Positions 7,714-13,145 of a stretch of DNA of 62,734 nucleotides are shown piece by piece. The translations under genes were made by a program, and so were the position numbers. Within the stretch, counting starts at the first letter, position 1, and every line of letters begins with the position of its first letter. The stretch is taken from positions 1 through 62,734 of the forward strand of contig JANQMN010000016.1 in assembly GCA_028280065.1 (NCBI GenBank), read 5' to 3'. The notes under the pieces are model-generated. The model was given only the letters and a program-made list of their open reading frames with translations. It made no database searches and was not told where the DNA came from. The stretch is from Hahella sp. Lineage in GTDB: Bacteria; Pseudomonadota; Gammaproteobacteria; Pseudomonadales; Oleiphilaceae.

Positions 7714-7744
7714 ACATCACTCCCCGAAAAACGGGAAGTGATGT
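7714..7744 (-). terminator. Rho-independent terminator of the slipin unit
   Basis: On the minus strand an inverted repeat pairs ACATCACT with AGTGATGT and continues inward into a CCCG/CGGG stem with one mismatch, around a T-rich loop. It is followed by TTTAGTTTTT. It begins four bases after the slipin stop codon and marks the end of the tRNA-like/slipin transcription unit. Confidence 0.8.
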
Positions 7745-7747
7745 GCT

Positions 7748-8872
7748 TCAAGTCAGTAATTTCGAAAGATTTAGCACCTGATCCAAACCTCCGACTACTT
7801 GGATTTTTTCGATCCGTTCGGAAATTTTTTCCAGCGCTTCAAGTTCTTTTAGCCGCAGCAACACCGGGTTGTTTTCCATCAGTTTCGCGGTGTTATGCAG
7901 TGACCGGGTCGCGGAAGTTTCTTCCCGCCGTTTGATCACATTGGCTTCCGCGGCTTTCTGCGCCTGCACTACCTGGTTCAGGATATCCTTCATGTCGCCG
8001 GGAAGGATAATATCCCGCACCCCGACAGATTCCAGCTTCACACCGATCACCCGCAGTTGCGTCTGTGCAGTCTCGGATACCATCCGGCCGATGACCTGCT
8101 TGTCCTCCAACAAGGCATCCAGTGTTCTGGTGCCGACGGCTTCCCGCAATGCGAGCTGCAAAACACGATAGATGTGTTCATTACCTTTTCGCACCTTAGT
8201 GATAAAGGTTTCTGCATCCTGAATATGGAAGCTGGCATTCAGATTCAGCCGGATGCTGACCCGGTCTTTGGTCAGAATCTCCTGACCGGTGATTTCCTCG
8301 TTTTGCAGACGGGTATCCACCTGCTCCACCTGAACCACGCGGTTGAATGCCCAGAACCCGTACCTTCCTGGAGCGAGGGTTTCAATCAACTTACCGTCCT
8401 GAAAGCGCAGTCCGACATGCTCTGCAGGCACGATGGAATGTACAACAAAGGTTTTGTTAAGCTGCCTGTCAAATCCCAAGTGCATTACTTCGCTTAGCAA
8501 GGCATCCGGCAGCCGAACCTGCTTAGTCAAATCCACCAGTGTTACCTGCCACTCGCCGGCATCCTTCCAGTAGAAGCGTTCTTCATCCGGTGCCATAATT
8601 CTATGCAGGCGCGCGTTAAGAGTAACCAGGGCGACTTCATGGGCGCTGGTTTTTACCACCATTAGCTGTTCATTCAATGCTGGGTGCTGCGACAACACTT
8701 TCGCTTTGCTATGAAAAAACTCGCCACCTGAGATATCGAACACCTCAGTATCAAACTGACGCCGCAGATACCGAAACTTATAACGACCAGGTTGTAAAAC
8801 ACGAGTCAGTTGCCGATCTTTATACAGCAGGACCCGTTCATGATCCGCTACTTTACAATCCAATAGAAACAT
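7748..8872 (-). CDS. Slipin / SPFH (band 7) protein of the RNA-repair locus
   Basis: The 374-residue protein has an SPFH domain from about 145 to 300 with the typical run QEILTKDRVSIRLNLNASFHI and LGVRDIILPG-like text (GVRDIILPGDMKDIL), followed by an Ala/Glu-rich helix (QAQKAAEANVIKRREETSA). Unlike ordinary slipins it has no N-terminal membrane helix. Instead the motif EHVGL-GKLIETLAPGRYGFW is preceded by a second, similar module near the N terminus (ERVLLYKDRQLTRVLQPGRYKF), so the first 140 residues look like a degenerate duplication. An AAAGGAG site lies eight bases before the ATG. Slipins are, to my knowledge, recurrent partners in RtcR-controlled loci, where their biochemical role is unknown. 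Here the gene is last in a minus-strand unit with two tRNA-like elements and a sigma-54-type promoter. Confidence 0.88.
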   Translation of the reverse strand: MFLLDCKVADHERVLLYKDRQLTRVLQPGRYKFRYLRRQFDTEVFDISGGEFFHSKAKVLSQHPALNEQLMVVKTSAHEVALVTLNARLHRIMAPDEERFYWKDAGEWQVTLVDLTKQVRLPDALLSEVMHLGFDRQLNKTFVVHSIVPAEHVGLRFQDGKLIETLAPGRYGFWAFNRVVQVEQVDTRLQNEEITGQEILTKDRVSIRLNLNASFHIQDAETFITKVRKGNEHIYRVLQLALREAVGTRTLDALLEDKQVIGRMVSETAQTQLRVIGVKLESVGVRDIILPGDMKDILNQVVQAQKAAEANVIKRREETSATRSLHNTAKLMENNPVLLRLKELEALEKISERIEKIQVVGGLDQVLNLSKLLT

Positions 8873-8884
8873 ATTTACTACTCC

Positions 8885-9118
8885 TTTTAAAAAGTCGCAG
8901 CCCTCAACATTCTGATTGAGACCAAAACTTGGTTTGATTCGGAACTTCCGCGGGCAGGTAGTAAAACGGAGAACAATCTCTATCGTTTCCCTGCTGGCGG
9001 AGGCTCAGCGCCAAATCCAGCGGTTTTGGTACAACAACCGTCCTGGCGGAATCCTTAGCCAACTATAAAGTGGCCGGATTCACGGGCTGCTGGTTGTACA
9101 ATAAGCCTTGGAAGGGCT
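8885..9118 (-). ncRNA. Structured RNA leader between tRNA-Lys-like gene and slipin
   Basis: Read on the minus strand, this segment folds into nested stems. ACAACC (9097-9092) can pair with GGTTGT (9039-9034). Inside it GAATCC (9081-9076) pairs with GGATTC (9054-9049). Inside that GCCACT-TTAT-AGT-T-GGC forms a hairpin. Further toward the slipin gene, TGGCG/CGCCA and ACCAA/TTGGT stems follow. No open frame of note is present. The length and stacked pairing suggest a structured RNA or processed leader, loosely recalling bacterial Y RNAs. No Ro60/Rsr gene is in the window and I do not claim homology. Confidence 0.45.
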
Positions 9119-9120
9119 TT

Positions 9121-9197
9121 TGGTTTCCGGAATGGGAGTTGAACCCATAACCCGTCGATTAAAAGTCGACTGCTCTACCCGATTGAGCTATCCAGAA
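9121..9197 (-). tRNA. tRNA-Lys(UUU)-like gene in the RNA-repair locus
   Basis: The 77-base element folds as a full cloverleaf. A seven-pair acceptor stem joins TTCTGGA with TCCGGAA. The D stem is GCTC/GAGC, and the anticodon stem GTCGA/TCGAC encloses loop CTTTTAA (anticodon TTT). The T arm is ATGGG-TTCAACT-CCCAT. It has discriminator A and an encoded CCA. U33, A37, the GG of the D loop and the T-loop consensus are present. The first pair is U1-A72, unusual because most elongator tRNAs begin with G. It is not in a normal tRNA operon. It lies 324 bases upstream of a slipin gene and abuts a Phe-like element, downstream of a sigma-54-type promoter. It could be a functional inducible tRNA or a decoy. 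Confidence 0.78.
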
Positions 9198-9264
9198 CTT
9201 GAGCAGGATTCGAACCCGCAACAACTGATTTTCAGTCAGTGCTCTACCATTGAGCTATCAAGTG
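9197..9264 (-). tRNA. tRNA-Phe(GAA)-like element, degenerate
   Basis: This cloverleaf has an acceptor stem of six pairs (ACTTGA/TCAAGT), a D arm GCTC-AATGGTA-GAGC and an anticodon stem ACTGA/TCAGT around loop CTGAAAA (anticodon GAA). The T arm is GCGGG-TTCGAAT-CCTGC. It departs from a working tRNA. The first acceptor pair would be C-T, no base is left between the D and anticodon stems, and the next base is T instead of discriminator A. No CCA follows, because its last base is also the first base of the Lys-like element. A normal tRNA-Phe exists at 37791, so this copy is extra and probably specialised or decayed. Confidence 0.68.
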
Positions 9265-9369
9265 GTGAACCGGCATTACTGCCCTATCTTCGGTACACCC
9301 TGCTTCAACGAAGAGGCGCCGGATCGGGAGATAACCGATACCGCTGAAGATAATGTTCAGAATAGTATT

Positions 9370-9385
9370 AACAATTCCTATGCCA
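9370..9385 (-). promoter_or_regulatory. Sigma-54-type promoter for tRNA-like/slipin unit
   Basis: Read on the minus strand the sequence is TGGCATAGGAATTGTT. Compared with the sigma-54 consensus TGGCACG-N4-TTGC(A/T), the -24 part TGGCA and the TTG of the -12 part match with the correct spacing, and the last bases differ (GT instead of GC). Transcription would start near 9358 and run through both tRNA-like elements into slipin. The rtcB promoter has the same variant form. Confidence 0.62.
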
Positions 9386-9496
9386 GTATCTAAAAAATCT
9401 GACAATAAAATATTCAACCCTTTGTATTTATTAATTAATTCAGCAAACATTAACTAATGGAAGGTTTCTAATCCAAATAGTGCTATGATCTCTCCA

Positions 9497-9520
9497 GATT
9501 AAGGTTGATCGGATTAGATA
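9497..9520 (+). promoter_or_regulatory. Candidate RtcR binding element upstream of rtcR
   Basis: The 24 bases ending two bases before the rtcR start contain the core TTGATCGGATTAGATA. An inverted copy with 22 of 24 aligned bases identical and one four-base gap lies at 11171-11198 upstream of rtcB. A partial inverted match, TCTAATCC, lies at 9467-9474. The element is about 110-135 bases upstream of the divergent sigma-54-type promoter and overlaps the expected 5' end of rtcR mRNA, so it could serve as an activator site and an autoregulatory site. Confidence 0.55.
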
Positions 9521-9521
9521 A

Positions 9522-11150
9522 ATGAAAAATGTCGCCGTTGGCTTGTTAGGAACCAAACTGGATAACCGAGGGAAATCCGAAAAACGCTGGCGCAAATGGC
9601 GGCCGACTGTCAGCCTTTGTGGTCATACAGAACTACCGGTAGAAAGATTTGAACTTCTCCATGAAACTCGGGACCGCAACCTGGCAGAAAAAATTGTTCA
9701 GGATATCCAGCAGATCTCACCGGAAACCGAAGTTTGTTTACACCCGATTCGAGTACGTGATCCCTGGGATTTTCAAGAGATGTATGGGGCGCTATTGGAT
9801 TTCTGCCTGGACTATTCCTTCAAGCCTGAACATGAGCAATACCTATTACATATTACCACCGGGACACATGTCGCCCAGATCTGTTGGTTTCTACTTTGTG
9901 AAGCACACTATGTTCCTGGAAAACTGTTGCAAACATCGCCACCGAATTCGGAAACACAAGGTGAAGGTTTAGGCAGCTATCAGATTATCGATCTCGACCT
10001 ATCCAAATATGATCGATTGGCGTCCCGCTTCGAACGCCAGGTCGAAGACAACCTGAGTTTTCTCAAAAGCGGAATTGCCACCAGGAACGAAGCGTTTAAC
10101 CGTATGATCGATCAGATGGAGCATGTCGCCTATCGCTCCGACGCCCCGGTTCTTATTACCGGCCCCACTGGTGCGGGCAAATCGCAATTAGCCAAAAGGC
10201 TCTACGAATTAAAGAGGCATCGTGGCTTAGTCAAAGGAGATTTCGTCCCGGTAAACTGCGCCACTCTTAGGGGTGACAGCGCAATGTCCTCGTTATTTGG
10301 CCATGTTAGAGGCGCTTTTACCGGAGCACAAACCAAGCGGGATGGTCTGCTTAGCAAAGCCAATACCGGTGTTTTGTTTTTGGACGAGATAGGTGAACTC
10401 GGTGCAGACGAGCAAGCCATGCTGCTGCATGCTATTGAAGAACATCGATTCTATCCTGTGGGATCTGATGCGACGGTGTCCAGCCGATTTCAATTAATCG
10501 CAGGCACCAATCGCGATCTACAACAGGACGTTGTCGACGGCAGATTCCGCGAAGACCTGCTGGCGCGCATCAATATGTGGACCTACCGGTTGCCCGGTCT
10601 GGCCGAGCGGAAGGAAGACTTAGAACCAAACATCGACTATGAACTTCTGCTCTTGCAGAAACAACAGGGGCATCAAGTTGCTTTTAATCAAGTCGCCCGA
10701 AAAAAGTACCTAGCTTTTGCCAGCTCCGATCAGGCCTTGTGGACAGGTAATTTCCGCGACCTGAATGCTTCTATCCAACGCATGGCAACCCTTGCCACCG
10801 GCGGAAGAATCACGGAGGAGGACGTACGGGAGGAGTTAGCCACCCTGCTTCAGCGCTGGGAACCTCATTCAGACCCGCAAACTCGCAAATCACCGGGTTT
10901 TAAGGTAGATCTCACCTGTTACTTCTCGGATGAGGAGCTGGAAGAAATCGATCTGTTTGATCAGATGCAACTTTCCCATGTCATTGCTATCTGCGTGGAA
11001 AGTTCAAACCTCTCCGAGGCGGGACGGCGCTTATTCGACAAATCCCGCTTGCGTAAGTCTTCCTCAAACGACGGACATCGGTTACGCCAGTATCTGGGAA
11101 AATTTGGTTTAACCCTGGAGAAGCTTAAGGAACTAAGGAATGCGAATTAG
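9522..11150 (+). CDS. rtcR: RtcR, sigma-54-dependent activator of RNA repair
   Basis: The 542-residue protein starts with the RtcR-specific CARF-like sensor domain (about residues 1-180, with MKNVAVGLLGTKLD and the segment HEQYLLHITTGTHVAQI). It continues with a bacterial enhancer-binding AAA+ domain: Walker A GPTGAGKS at about 214-221, the sigma-54 contact loop GAFTGA at about 264-269 and Walker B VLFLDEIGEL near 294. A C-terminal helix-turn-helix (LSEAGRRLFDKSR) ends it. Published work on Salmonella showed the CARF domain binds 5' tRNA halves ending in cyclic phosphate and then activates sigma-54 promoters. Here it sits between two candidate sigma-54 units, rtcB and the tRNA-like/slipin unit. 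Confidence 0.96.
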   Translation: MKNVAVGLLGTKLDNRGKSEKRWRKWRPTVSLCGHTELPVERFELLHETRDRNLAEKIVQDIQQISPETEVCLHPIRVRDPWDFQEMYGALLDFCLDYSFKPEHEQYLLHITTGTHVAQICWFLLCEAHYVPGKLLQTSPPNSETQGEGLGSYQIIDLDLSKYDRLASRFERQVEDNLSFLKSGIATRNEAFNRMIDQMEHVAYRSDAPVLITGPTGAGKSQLAKRLYELKRHRGLVKGDFVPVNCATLRGDSAMSSLFGHVRGAFTGAQTKRDGLLSKANTGVLFLDEIGELGADEQAMLLHAIEEHRFYPVGSDATVSSRFQLIAGTNRDLQQDVVDGRFREDLLARINMWTYRLPGLAERKEDLEPNIDYELLLLQKQQGHQVAFNQVARKKYLAFASSDQALWTGNFRDLNASIQRMATLATGGRITEEDVREELATLLQRWEPHSDPQTRKSPGFKVDLTCYFSDEELEEIDLFDQMQLSHVIAICVESSNLSEAGRRLFDKSRLRKSSSNDGHRLRQYLGKFGLTLEKLKELRNAN

Positions 11151-11170
11151 ATAAACTTGACTTCGAAATT

Positions 11171-11198
11171 TATCCAATCCGATCAAACAACCCTAATC
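11171..11198 (-). promoter_or_regulatory. Candidate RtcR upstream activating site of rtcB
   Basis: The complement of this stretch contains the core TTGATCGGATTGGATA, which matches the element before rtcR (9497-9520) except for two bases and a four-base insertion, in the opposite orientation. It lies about 52-79 bases upstream of the -24 box of the rtcB promoter, a normal distance for an enhancer-binding protein. The function is inferred from the repeat and its position. Confidence 0.55.
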
Positions 11199-11249
11199 AC
11201 AGCAAGCCAAATTCATGAATTTCTTATATAATTCATAAGGTTACAAAGT

Positions 11250-11265
11250 TGGCATCATAATTGGT
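11250..11265 (+). promoter_or_regulatory. Sigma-54-type promoter of rtcB
   Basis: The sequence TGGCATCATAATTGGT has the -24 TGGCA and the -12 TTG at correct spacing for sigma-54. It agrees with the divergent promoter at 9370-9385 in 12 of 16 positions. It ends 38 bases before the rtcB start codon, leaving a short leader. Confidence 0.62.
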
Positions 11266-11303
11266 AAGTAAGTGCTGAAAAACACCACATTGAGAAAGAT
11301 ACG

Positions 11304-12524
11304 ATGAACTATCAGGTAACAAACGTCGAACAAGGCGTTCCCATCAAGTCCTGGACTATTGGCGTGAACTTTGAAGATCAGGCGCGCCAGCAATTGAAAA
11401 ATATCGCCGGTCTACCCTTTATTCACAAATGGGTAGCCGCGATGCCGGACGTGCATTTGGGAAAAGGCGCAACCATAGGATCGGTTATTCCCACAGTAGA
11501 CGCGATTATCCCCGCCGCTGTCGGTGTTGATATCGGCTGCGGAATGATGGCCGCGAGAACAGATTTGAATGCGCTGGATCTGCCGGATAATTTGCATGGT
11601 ATTCGAACCGCAATCGAAAAAGCGGTTCCACACGGACGTTCAACCGGACGCGGTAGACGAGATATCGGATCTTGGGGTCACGCTCCTGAGTTAGTACAGG
11701 ATAAGTGGAAATCCAAGTTACAGACAGATTTTGAGCTGCTTTGCGAAAAGCATCCTGTGTTAAAAAACACCAACAATCTGAATCATTTGGGTACGCTCGG
11801 CACCGGCAATCACTTTATCGAACTTTGCTTGGATGAAAAGGACCGAGTCTGGGTGATGCTGCACTCCGGATCTCGAGGCGTAGGAAACCGCATTGGTACT
11901 TACTTCATCGAAAAAGCCAAAGAAGATATGCAGCGTTGGCATATTCATTTACCGGATAAGGATCTGGCATATTTTCCTGAGGGAACGAATCATTTCAACG
12001 ATTATGTGGAAGCAGTGGAATGGGCTCAACACTTTGCCCGCATCAACCGGGAGATCATGATGCAAAATACCCTGAACGCGCTATCAGCAGAAATGAATCG
12101 ATCATTACATGCGGATCTTGAAGCGGTCAATTGTCATCATAATTATGTGCAACGGGAATGGCACTACAATAAGGAAGTCTGGTTAACCAGAAAAGGCGCG
12201 GTGAGTGCACAGCTTGGCCAGATGGGCATCATCCCGGGAAGCATGGGAACCCGTTCCTACATCGTCCGCGGCCTGGGTAATCAGGAGTCCTTCTGCTCTT
12301 GTAGTCATGGCGCGGGAAGGGTGATGTCCCGCACCGAGGCCAAGAAAAAAGTCAGCCTGGCTGAACATATTGCCGCCACCGCGCATGTGGAGTGCCGTAA
12401 AGATAAGGACGTCGTCGATGAAACACCATCTGCATACAAAGATATTGATGCGGTCATGGAAGCGCAGAAGGACTTGGTTGAAGTTGTTCATCAGCTTCGT
12501 CAGGTGGTTTGTGTGAAGGGGTAG
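11304..12524 (+). CDS. rtcB: RNA ligase RtcB
   Basis: RtcB joins RNA 3'-phosphate or 2',3'-cyclic phosphate ends to 5'-OH ends using GTP and Mn2+, through a His-GMP intermediate. The 406-residue protein has the metal and catalytic residues: Cys79 in GVDIGCGM, His170 in GTGNHFIE, His187 in LHSGSRG, the CHHNY motif near 277-281, and the guanylylated His335 in CSCSHGAGR. The length is that of the Escherichia coli enzyme (408). It has its own sigma-54-type promoter and is the only gene of its unit. The usual partner cyclase rtcA and an archease are absent from the window. Confidence 0.97.
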   Translation: MNYQVTNVEQGVPIKSWTIGVNFEDQARQQLKNIAGLPFIHKWVAAMPDVHLGKGATIGSVIPTVDAIIPAAVGVDIGCGMMAARTDLNALDLPDNLHGIRTAIEKAVPHGRSTGRGRRDIGSWGHAPELVQDKWKSKLQTDFELLCEKHPVLKNTNNLNHLGTLGTGNHFIELCLDEKDRVWVMLHSGSRGVGNRIGTYFIEKAKEDMQRWHIHLPDKDLAYFPEGTNHFNDYVEAVEWAQHFARINREIMMQNTLNALSAEMNRSLHADLEAVNCHHNYVQREWHYNKEVWLTRKGAVSAQLGQMGIIPGSMGTRSYIVRGLGNQESFCSCSHGAGRVMSRTEAKKKVSLAEHIAATAHVECRKDKDVVDETPSAYKDIDAVMEAQKDLVEVVHQLRQVVCVKG

Positions 12525-12680: not shown

Positions 12681-13145
12681 ATGCTGCATATTGTCTTATT
12701 CCAACCTGAGATCCCGCCCAATACCGGCAATGTGATTCGCCTCGCGGCTAACACGGGCTTTCAACTGCACTTGATCGAACCGCTCGGCTTTATTTGGGAC
12801 GATAGGCGTCTGATGCGGGCGGGTCTGGATTATCATGAATATTCGAGTGTGCAACAGCATGCCGATTTACCGGCTTATCTGGCAACTGCGAAACCCACTC
12901 GGCTGTTGGCGCTGTCCACAAGGGGCCGACACTATTATCACGAACTCCAGTTTCAATCAGGCGATGCGTTGCTTTTTGGACCGGAAACCAGGGGACTTCC
13001 GCAAAACTTGTTGGATGAATTGCCGGCGGAGCAATGTTTGCGCATCCCCATGTTGGCCAACAGCCGCAGTTTGAATCTCTCTAACACGGTAGCGCTGGTT
13101 GCCTATGAGGCCTGGCGGCAACTGGGTTTTGAAGGGGGGATTTAA
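12681..13145 (+). CDS. trmL: tRNA (cytidine/uridine-34 2'-O)-methyltransferase TrmL
   Basis: This 154-residue SPOUT-class methyltransferase has the TrmL start [20 protein letters not shown], the knot-forming motif [14 protein letters not shown] near 93-106 and the cofactor loop [19 protein letters not shown] near 121-140. It methylates the 2'-O of the wobble nucleotide in tRNA-Leu isoacceptors. In Pseudomonas trmL is, as I recall, beside secB. Here about 9.9 kb separates the two. Its place just after rtcB puts two tRNA-acting genes side by side, though this may reflect insertion at a backbone junction. Confidence 0.93.

Follow-up and report, generated by a model that had tools for sequence, protein, structure and literature searches.

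tRNA-like RNAs paired with an SPFH gene in a probable split RtcR regulon of Hahella sp., and the hypervariable anticodon loops of their Pseudomonas relatives

Why would an RNA-repair locus encode tRNA-like elements directly in front of an SPFH gene? The question is raised by a stretch of 62,734 nucleotides from Hahella sp. (assembly GCA_028280065.1, contig JANQMN010000016.1, positions 1 to 62,734 of the forward strand), analyzed at its full length and called the window here. Within it, rtcR stands, as a preliminary description of the locus had reported, between rtcB (downstream, plus strand) and a divergent minus-strand unit composed of two tRNA-like elements, which we call mimics, and a Band_7/SPFH gene (Table 1). 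We propose, as a tentative answer that falls somewhat short of probable, that RtcR here governs a split regulon for RNA damage in which the induced RNA would act as a decoy or bait held by the SPFH protein.

The mimic proves to be a constant companion of the SPFH gene. Among 194 genomes of the host's order, members of the SPFH family (E <1e-50) occur in 16, all 16 with a tRNA-like element upstream. RtcR (PF06956) is found in 19 of the 194 at 20 places, 12 of which (the window included) have an SPFH gene within the fetched stretch, and it is present in 13 of the 16 SPFH genomes versus 6 of the 178 others (Fisher p 2e-13, uncorrected for kinship between genomes that are not independent). A scan of named species returned at least 469 SPFH relatives, and the 80 best were retained; judging from the organism names, these are presumably gamma- and betaproteobacteria. 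Together with 12 loci from the host's order (window included), and after removal of four duplicates (L041, L053, L067, L104), they form a set of 88 loci. ARAGORN places a tRNA-like element on the same strand within 700 bases upstream of the SPFH gene in 81 of them, and the Rfam tRNA model adds five of the other seven (L045, L060, L092, L100, L105), giving 86 of 88. Neither method recognizes a mimic in L042 and L051, the latter having a match to the covariance model R1 introduced below. The chance of meeting a tRNA in a given same-strand stretch of 700 bases is about 0.2% (42 tRNA matches in a genome of 6.68 Mb), and chance tRNA-like folds are rejected by the 86 loci. The linkage in relatives, which the preliminary description had set as a check, is thus conserved. 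Since tRNA genes are common insertion sites, the mimics might be remnants of mobile-element insertion, tied to the SPFH gene by descent only. This is very improbable, as such remnants would hardly be retained in 86 of 88 loci with the near-invariant body seen in Pseudomonas (see below); this conservation contradicts insertion scars.

Gene order varies: mimic and SPFH gene divergent from rtcR, or rtcB, rtcA, mimic and SPFH gene in one direction. Of 76 distinct named loci, some of them cut by contig ends, 45 have RtcR in the stretch, 48 RtcB and 35 RtcA. RtcR is missing from the stretch in 31 named SPFH loci, and 14 of the 16 genomes checked among these, whose completeness is unstated, have no RtcR match. 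It would thus seem that the SPFH/mimic pair forms the stable core of the system, with RtcR as a frequent controller.

The anticodon loops stand apart from the rest of the mimic. In Pseudomonas, where 13 of 25 genomes of the genus carry mimics, we compared 10 distinct loci (45 pairs), leaving aside L131, which has a deletion, and L132, which has an exchanged module 1. Counting closing pairs, the two modules have 18 loop columns, and these show a mean pairwise difference of 35.6%, against 13.8% at fourfold sites of the SPFH gene and 1.2% in the remaining 128 mimic columns. Fourteen of the loop columns and seven of the others vary, rising to 15 of 18 and 26 of 128 when L131 and L132 are included. 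The SPFH-gene tree (4 of 10 inner branches well supported; L133, with one module, not in the tree) requires at least five changes for the proximal loop (12 rows) and at least eight for the upstream loop (11 rows), and the members of each of the three well-supported sister pairs differ in at least one loop. As a control, the loop of tRNA-Arg is identical in 17 of 17 Pseudomonas loci and that of tRNA-His in 9 of 10. In the wider set, loops differ on identical or near-identical bodies in L050/L055, L076/L083 and L094/L097, and are unchanged in L057/L058, L065/L075, L032/L035/L036 and L054/L059. This pattern suits diversifying selection or a fast exchange of loops, and fast-changing loops are what one would expect of decoys, not of working tRNAs. 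Loops that diverge beyond fourfold sites in an otherwise near-frozen RNA suggest that the molecule acts through its anticodon loop, and they make the decoy idea directly testable. A hairpin, TGCC-(7 bases, partly variable)-GGCA, occupies the first 15 bases of the 3' part in L121-L132, right after the proximal mimic, and its loop looks like another variable loop.

Most mimics also differ from ordinary tRNAs in features that bear on decoding. We surveyed the SPFH-proximal element in 78 of the 88 loci, leaving out four with unusual modules (L062, L093, L100, L107) and six without an ARAGORN module (L042, L045, L051, L060, L092, L105). CCA is encoded in only 12 of the 78, position 1:72 is unpaired in 44, and the loop has 7 bases in 69 and 6 or 8 bases in nine. 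Within the 7-base loops, U33 occurs in 37 of 69 and A34 in 30, 27 of these being other than ACG; three proximal elements carry the anticodon TTA. Other tRNAs of the named loci, on the same strand and no more than 6 kb away, serve for comparison: CCA is present in 10 of 69 proximal elements and 0 of 15 touching upstream copies, versus 83 of 94 other tRNAs; U33 in 7-base loops in 33 of 61 and 5 of 9, versus 89 of 94; and A34 other than ACG in 20 proximal elements, no touching upstream copy and none of the 94 other tRNAs, of which two have 1:72 unpaired. Mimics number one to three per locus, and tandem copies overlap or touch. As a family, the mimics look ill suited to decoding.

The two modules of the window illustrate both ends of this range. 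They overlap by 3 bases, the 3' end of the Phe-like module lying within the Lys-like one, and of the two the window-wide Rfam scan at the gathering cut-off lists the Lys-like module alone, the Phe-like module being listed in a genome-wide RF00005 search. Their loops match, without any difference, those of the ordinary tRNA-Lys(UUU) and tRNA-Phe(GAA) of this genome, the Lys-like loop having been compared over 7 bases. The Lys-like module has CCA, U33 and a fully paired acceptor, and is one of the minority of mimics that could still work as tRNAs. Of the 34 distinct tRNA sequences obtained at 30 of the genome's 42 tRNA places, the Phe-like module is the sole one without CCA; it also has neither the paired acceptor nor the separation from its neighbor expected of a functional tRNA.

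These data bear on an idea put forward for inducible tRNA operons, that working tRNAs are induced to bring decoding back once anticodons have been cleaved; the preliminary description had suggested a response that makes new tRNA-like molecules. As replacement tRNAs, the SPFH-proximal elements find no support, given the scarcity of CCA, the frequent lack of a 1:72 pair, the A34 and TTA anticodons and the 6- or 8-base loops, to which add the overlapping CCA-less tandem copies and the window's own Phe-like module; for the system as a whole we regard this explanation as unlikely. The idea may hold in related loci with separate arrays of complete, ordinary tRNAs, where it is likely, and it is possible for the window's Lys-like copy with its CCA and normal loop. 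Arrays made mostly of ordinary tRNAs with CCA lie beside the SPFH/mimic unit in L054 (9971-13682, 17 tRNAs), L059 (9573-13384, 13), L103 (2405-4406, 12) and L109 (940-4317, 12), and are candidate damage-induced replacement tRNA operons. In L040 (8716-12216), a second RtcR of genome G151 is divergent from six tRNA genes, with a sigma-54-type site, TGGCACGAGCCCTGCA, between them (score 19/20, without shuffle comparison), and no SPFH match occurs in the 20-kb stretch. Control of a tRNA operon, rtcB and a slipin gene by one regulator is also on record, namely by the Anabaena repressor TrcR (consulted parts of PMC10272220).

Are both outer units under the control of RtcR? The RtcR protein matches NF038308 over its full length (cut-off 650 bits), its translation contains the GAFTGA loop already proposed for it as well as a Walker A motif, and the whole genome has one RpoN match. 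Sigma-54-type promoters of the variant form announced in the preliminary description are indeed found in front of both units. They were scored on a simple 20-point scale made for this analysis from the sigma-54 consensus, accepting C or T at the sixth base as that description proposed, and the observed score was equaled in 1% (mimic/SPFH unit) and 0% (rtcB) of 200 dinucleotide shuffles; the mimic/SPFH transcript is expected to start near 9359. Upstream of both units, in equal orientation relative to each target, lies a 17-base repeat with one mismatch, TTATCYAATCCGATCAA, whose score is equaled by 7 of 2000 shuffled region pairs. Its 9-base core, AATCCGATC, occurs in just these two places of the window, and an inverted 8-mer partner of site 1 is found at 9467-9474. 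No RtcR site common to several genomes was found: of 47 regions, the window's 8-base core is present in three, and two of these belong to the window itself. In L030, the nearest SPFH relative encountered, the two units share a repeat unlike that of the window (2 of 2000 shuffles). Where rtcR lies directly upstream, a sigma-54-type site (shuffle p <=0.05) stands in 24 of 26 regions with a mimic first, counting that of the window, in 16 of 16 with rtcB first and in 3 of 4 with the SPFH gene first. From the sigma-54-type sites, the shared repeat and the recurring linkage in relatives, we conclude that RtcR probably controls both outputs, as first suggested.

We thus propose the following course of events. 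RNases cutting tRNA anticodon loops would leave 5' halves with cyclic phosphate that activate RtcR, which in turn would switch on RtcB for RNA mending and the mimic/SPFH unit. The mimic RNA, held by an SPFH oligomer, could then act as decoy or bait for the loop-cutting nuclease, and cut mimics might be resealed by RtcB while supplying further halves to RtcR. In Salmonella, RtcR is reported to bind 5' tRNA halves with cyclic-phosphate ends (consulted sections of Hughes et al., 2020; PMC7790460). The same sections report rtcA as required for induction in a truA mutant, with no significant difference in a ruvA mutant, so that the earlier statement that rtcA is needed for the signal in Salmonella is too strong. 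That rtcA is absent here holds genome-wide: no RtcA match (PF01137) occurs anywhere in the genome, which is 98.07% complete, and rtcB has no rtcA alongside it as in an RtcBA operon. The related suggestion that halves with cyclic phosphate arise directly fits Hughes et al. (2020) in the sections consulted, whereas the abstract of Kotta-Loizou et al. was counted against it. The locus is also an opportunity to study RtcR where RtcA is absent from the genome.

Several observations weigh against a decoy under RtcR control. L054 and L059 differ by 10 changes in the body and none in the loop, and L032, L035 and L036 likewise keep their loop while the body changes. Relaxed constraint is a possible cause of the loop variation, because GC-rich fourfold sites are themselves constrained and may underestimate neutral change, and because gaps were scored as differences. 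The window's Lys-like copy, with CCA, U33 and a paired acceptor, has the makings of a tRNA. The mimic/SPFH pair can occur without RtcR, rtcB is missing from the stretch in six loci that all have RtcR (L032, L035, L036, L042, L050, L055), and the sequence of the window's upstream repeat is not common to other genomes. Both the nuclease targeted by the decoy and the binding of the mimic are postulated, and the YrlA RNA of Salmonella is not cut by the RecA-dependent nuclease (consulted sections of PMC7790460).

The mimics seem to be embedded in a longer structured RNA. Folded as single sequences against 20 dinucleotide shuffles each, the 3' parts between mimic and SPFH start reach z < -2 in 57 of 71 loci (those of the 78 with a leader of 150-520 bases and no N). 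An alignment of 13 Pseudomonas loci, spanning the sigma-54 site to the SPFH start and compared with column shuffles, gives z -2.4 for the 5' part, -5.4 for the mimics and -9.1 for the 3' part. Upstream of the mimics in relatives recurs an element of two hairpins (GGUGC, GUAUGCC), in which 7 of 14 pairs show pair-keeping changes on both sides (16 loci). The strict pattern of this 5' motif is found in 16 of 88 loci versus 0.1 expected from shuffles, and with these 16 as training set we built the covariance model R1. At E <=0.01, R1 matches 46 of the 88 SPFH sources (30 outside the training set), in every case ahead of the SPFH gene and in its orientation, and none of eight RtcR stretches without SPFH. 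In the 194 whole genomes it gives seven matches at E <=0.01, three upstream of SPFH genes (G122, G170, G007) and four elsewhere (G021, G027, G084, G193) that look like chance; the window's genome is not among these matches. In a 681-base search of the window, the best match (17.9 bits, E 2e-5) falls at 9106-9179, in the Lys-like module (3' half). The leader has the second one (9.7 bits, E 0.01). Hairpin 1 of the 5' element (alignment A3), with its UUCAA-type loop, resembles a tRNA T arm; R1 may thus partly score T arms, and the 5' domain may itself be tRNA-derived. We consider the 5' element real in relatives, but are unsure of its assignment to the leader in the window, because the better match falls on the Lys-like module.

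This architecture recalls Y RNAs, and our main rival explanation is that the RNA relates to the SPFH protein as a Y RNA does to Rsr/Ro60: the tRNA-like part would trap broken tRNAs or enzymes that handle tRNA, while the SPFH oligomer, bound by the 3' rod, would bring RtcB or a degradation enzyme to the substrate. The folding of the 3' part, the covariation of the 5' element and the occurrence of the SPFH/mimic pair without RtcR are all consistent with such a scaffold, as is one RtcR locus of the host's order that is of another kind. In L023 (3750-9736), a TROVE/Ro60-type protein and two YrlA RNAs replace the SPFH/mimic unit, next to RtcB, RtcA-like and RlaP (PF10127) genes and without SPFH match. 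The protein scores 97.8 bits with the NCBIfam Rsr model, under the cut-off of 900, and no match to it was seen in the 76 named SPFH loci. Yet Rfam at gathering, applied to the window, 13 SPFH loci and L023, finds nothing but tRNA beside SPFH genes, and the absence of any YrlA match (RF02553) in the window or the 13 loci leads us to reject a YrlA identity for the mimic RNA. Binding to the protein is hypothetical, and a scaffold alone leaves unexplained why anticodon loops differ more than fourfold sites. On balance we hold the scaffold to be a possible but doubtful explanation.

Alternatively, the tRNA-like fold could be no more than a part of the SPFH mRNA that serves in processing or sensing: RNase P would cut it, or a tRNA-handling protein would bind it, and SPFH expression would be set in this way. 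Its constant position on the same strand, within about 700 bases before the SPFH gene in 86 of 88 loci, and the structured leader are in line with a cis-acting role, but a locus may have one, two or three mimics, in some cases with other tRNAs or with rtcB and rtcA ahead of them in the same direction, and a cis-acting element has no need of a hypervariable anticodon loop. We deem it improbable.

The decoy proposal can be extended to a fuller bait system, which is possible but rather unlikely. A conserved RNA chassis would display interchangeable anticodon hairpins, driven to diversify by an arms race against anticodon nucleases, be they from phages, from rivals or among the toxins of the cell itself. 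A soluble, vault-like SPFH assembly would carry the chassis; cleavage would be signaled to RtcR, and RtcB would mend it. The chassis, made up of the two-hairpin 5' domain, the tandem mimics and the 3' rod, would constitute an uncatalogued RNA family, and the SPFH/RNA pair would be an autonomous module to which RtcR was added in many lineages.

What kind of protein might hold such an RNA? Slipins and stomatin-type proteins have an N-terminal membrane segment. The product of the SPFH gene, previously called a slipin, does have the SPFH domain, preceded by small beta repeats and followed by a helical tail, but it looks soluble: no membrane segment is visible from hydropathy, the best 19-residue mean being 0.98 without use of a dedicated predictor (0.96-1.22 across five SPFH proteins tested), and a classic membrane slipin is rejected on this basis. 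AlphaFold2 predicts the structure with a mean pLDDT (predicted local distance difference test) of 82 and a pTM (predicted template modeling score) of 0.60. The top Foldseek match of the predicted fold is stomatin (E 4e-15); that to the major vault protein is weaker (E 2.7e-11) and superposes poorly (TM-scores about 0.2-0.5, root-mean-square deviation 16-21), and no match to vault Pfam families is listed at E up to 10. Assembly into an SPFH ring or cage is conceivable. The SPFH proteins of L032, L035 and L036 are 512 residues long, with additional N-terminal sequence resembling more beta repeats.

Table 1. Features of the rtcR region in the window
Feature	Position	Strand	Evidence or remark
SPFH/Band_7 protein, 374 residues	7748..8872	-	PF01145 E 7.8e-27
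Structured 3' part, between mimics and SPFH start	8873..9120	-	fold z -6.1
tRNA-Lys(UUU)-like module, SPFH-proximal, CCA encoded	9121..9197	-	ARAGORN; Rfam tRNA 67.7 bits
tRNA-Phe(GAA)-like module, no CCA, 1:72 unpaired	9195..9264	-	ARAGORN; Rfam tRNA 56.0 bits
5' leader with hairpins	9265..9360	-	possible weak counterpart of relatives' GGUGC/GUAUGCC element
Sigma-54-type promoter, mimic/SPFH unit, TGGCATAGGAATTGTT	9370..9385	-	score 18/20, shuffle p 0.01
Shared upstream repeat, proposed RtcR site 1	9505..9521	-	7/2000 shuffles as good
RtcR, CARF-type sensor and sigma-54 activator	9522..11150	+	NF038308 797.5 bits; PF06956 E 5.6e-83
Shared upstream repeat, proposed RtcR site 2	11170..11186	+	same repeat comparison as site 1
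Sigma-54-type promoter, rtcB, TGGCATCATAATTGGT	11250..11265	+	score 18/20, 0/200 shuffles
RtcB RNA ligase	11304..12524	+	PF01139 E 7e-134

Parts of this arrangement have counterparts in known systems. Burroughs and Aravind reportedly noted, in the abstract of a 2016 paper, SPFH/Band-7 modules in RNA-repair systems with a 'novel tRNA-like molecule' as cognate RNA; this is very probably the same association as here. What may be new are the hypervariable loops and the additional RNA domains, as we found no literature on such loops or on 5'/3' RNA domains in a search whose coverage excluded most subscription papers. In Salmonella, the rsr-yrlBA-rtcBA operon is under RtcR control (Hughes et al., 2020; PMC7790460) and, as far as the consulted sections describe it, shares with the window a CARF-type RtcR and a regulon that includes RtcB and a partly tRNA-like noncoding RNA. 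It differs in that here the genome has no RtcA and the window no YrlA match, the mimics accompany an SPFH gene, and parts of the regulon lie on either side of rtcR. Pseudomonas aeruginosa likewise has an SPFH gene in its rtc locus, PaFlo8 (PA14_60630), embedded among rtcA, rtcB and rtcR (PMC13086221, main text), although the word tRNA does not appear in that main text. The TrcR regulon of Anabaena, with rtcB, the slipin gene alr0740 and the trn tRNA operon, resembles the window in placing three kinds of output under one stress regulator, but TrcR is a repressor of another family, its genes are scattered and its tRNA array is long (consulted parts of PMC10272220).

Two further observations concern rtcB and its surroundings. 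In L043 (4298-5513), rtcB aligns as three overlapping pieces, suggesting frame breaks in the record. In the window, a TrmL-type gene, for which no match was reported among the 19 RtcR stretches from the host's order, lies at 12681-13145 and starts 157 bases past rtcB (TIGR00185 201.8 bits, cut-off 190.6); from its name, we take its product to be a wobble-base methylase.

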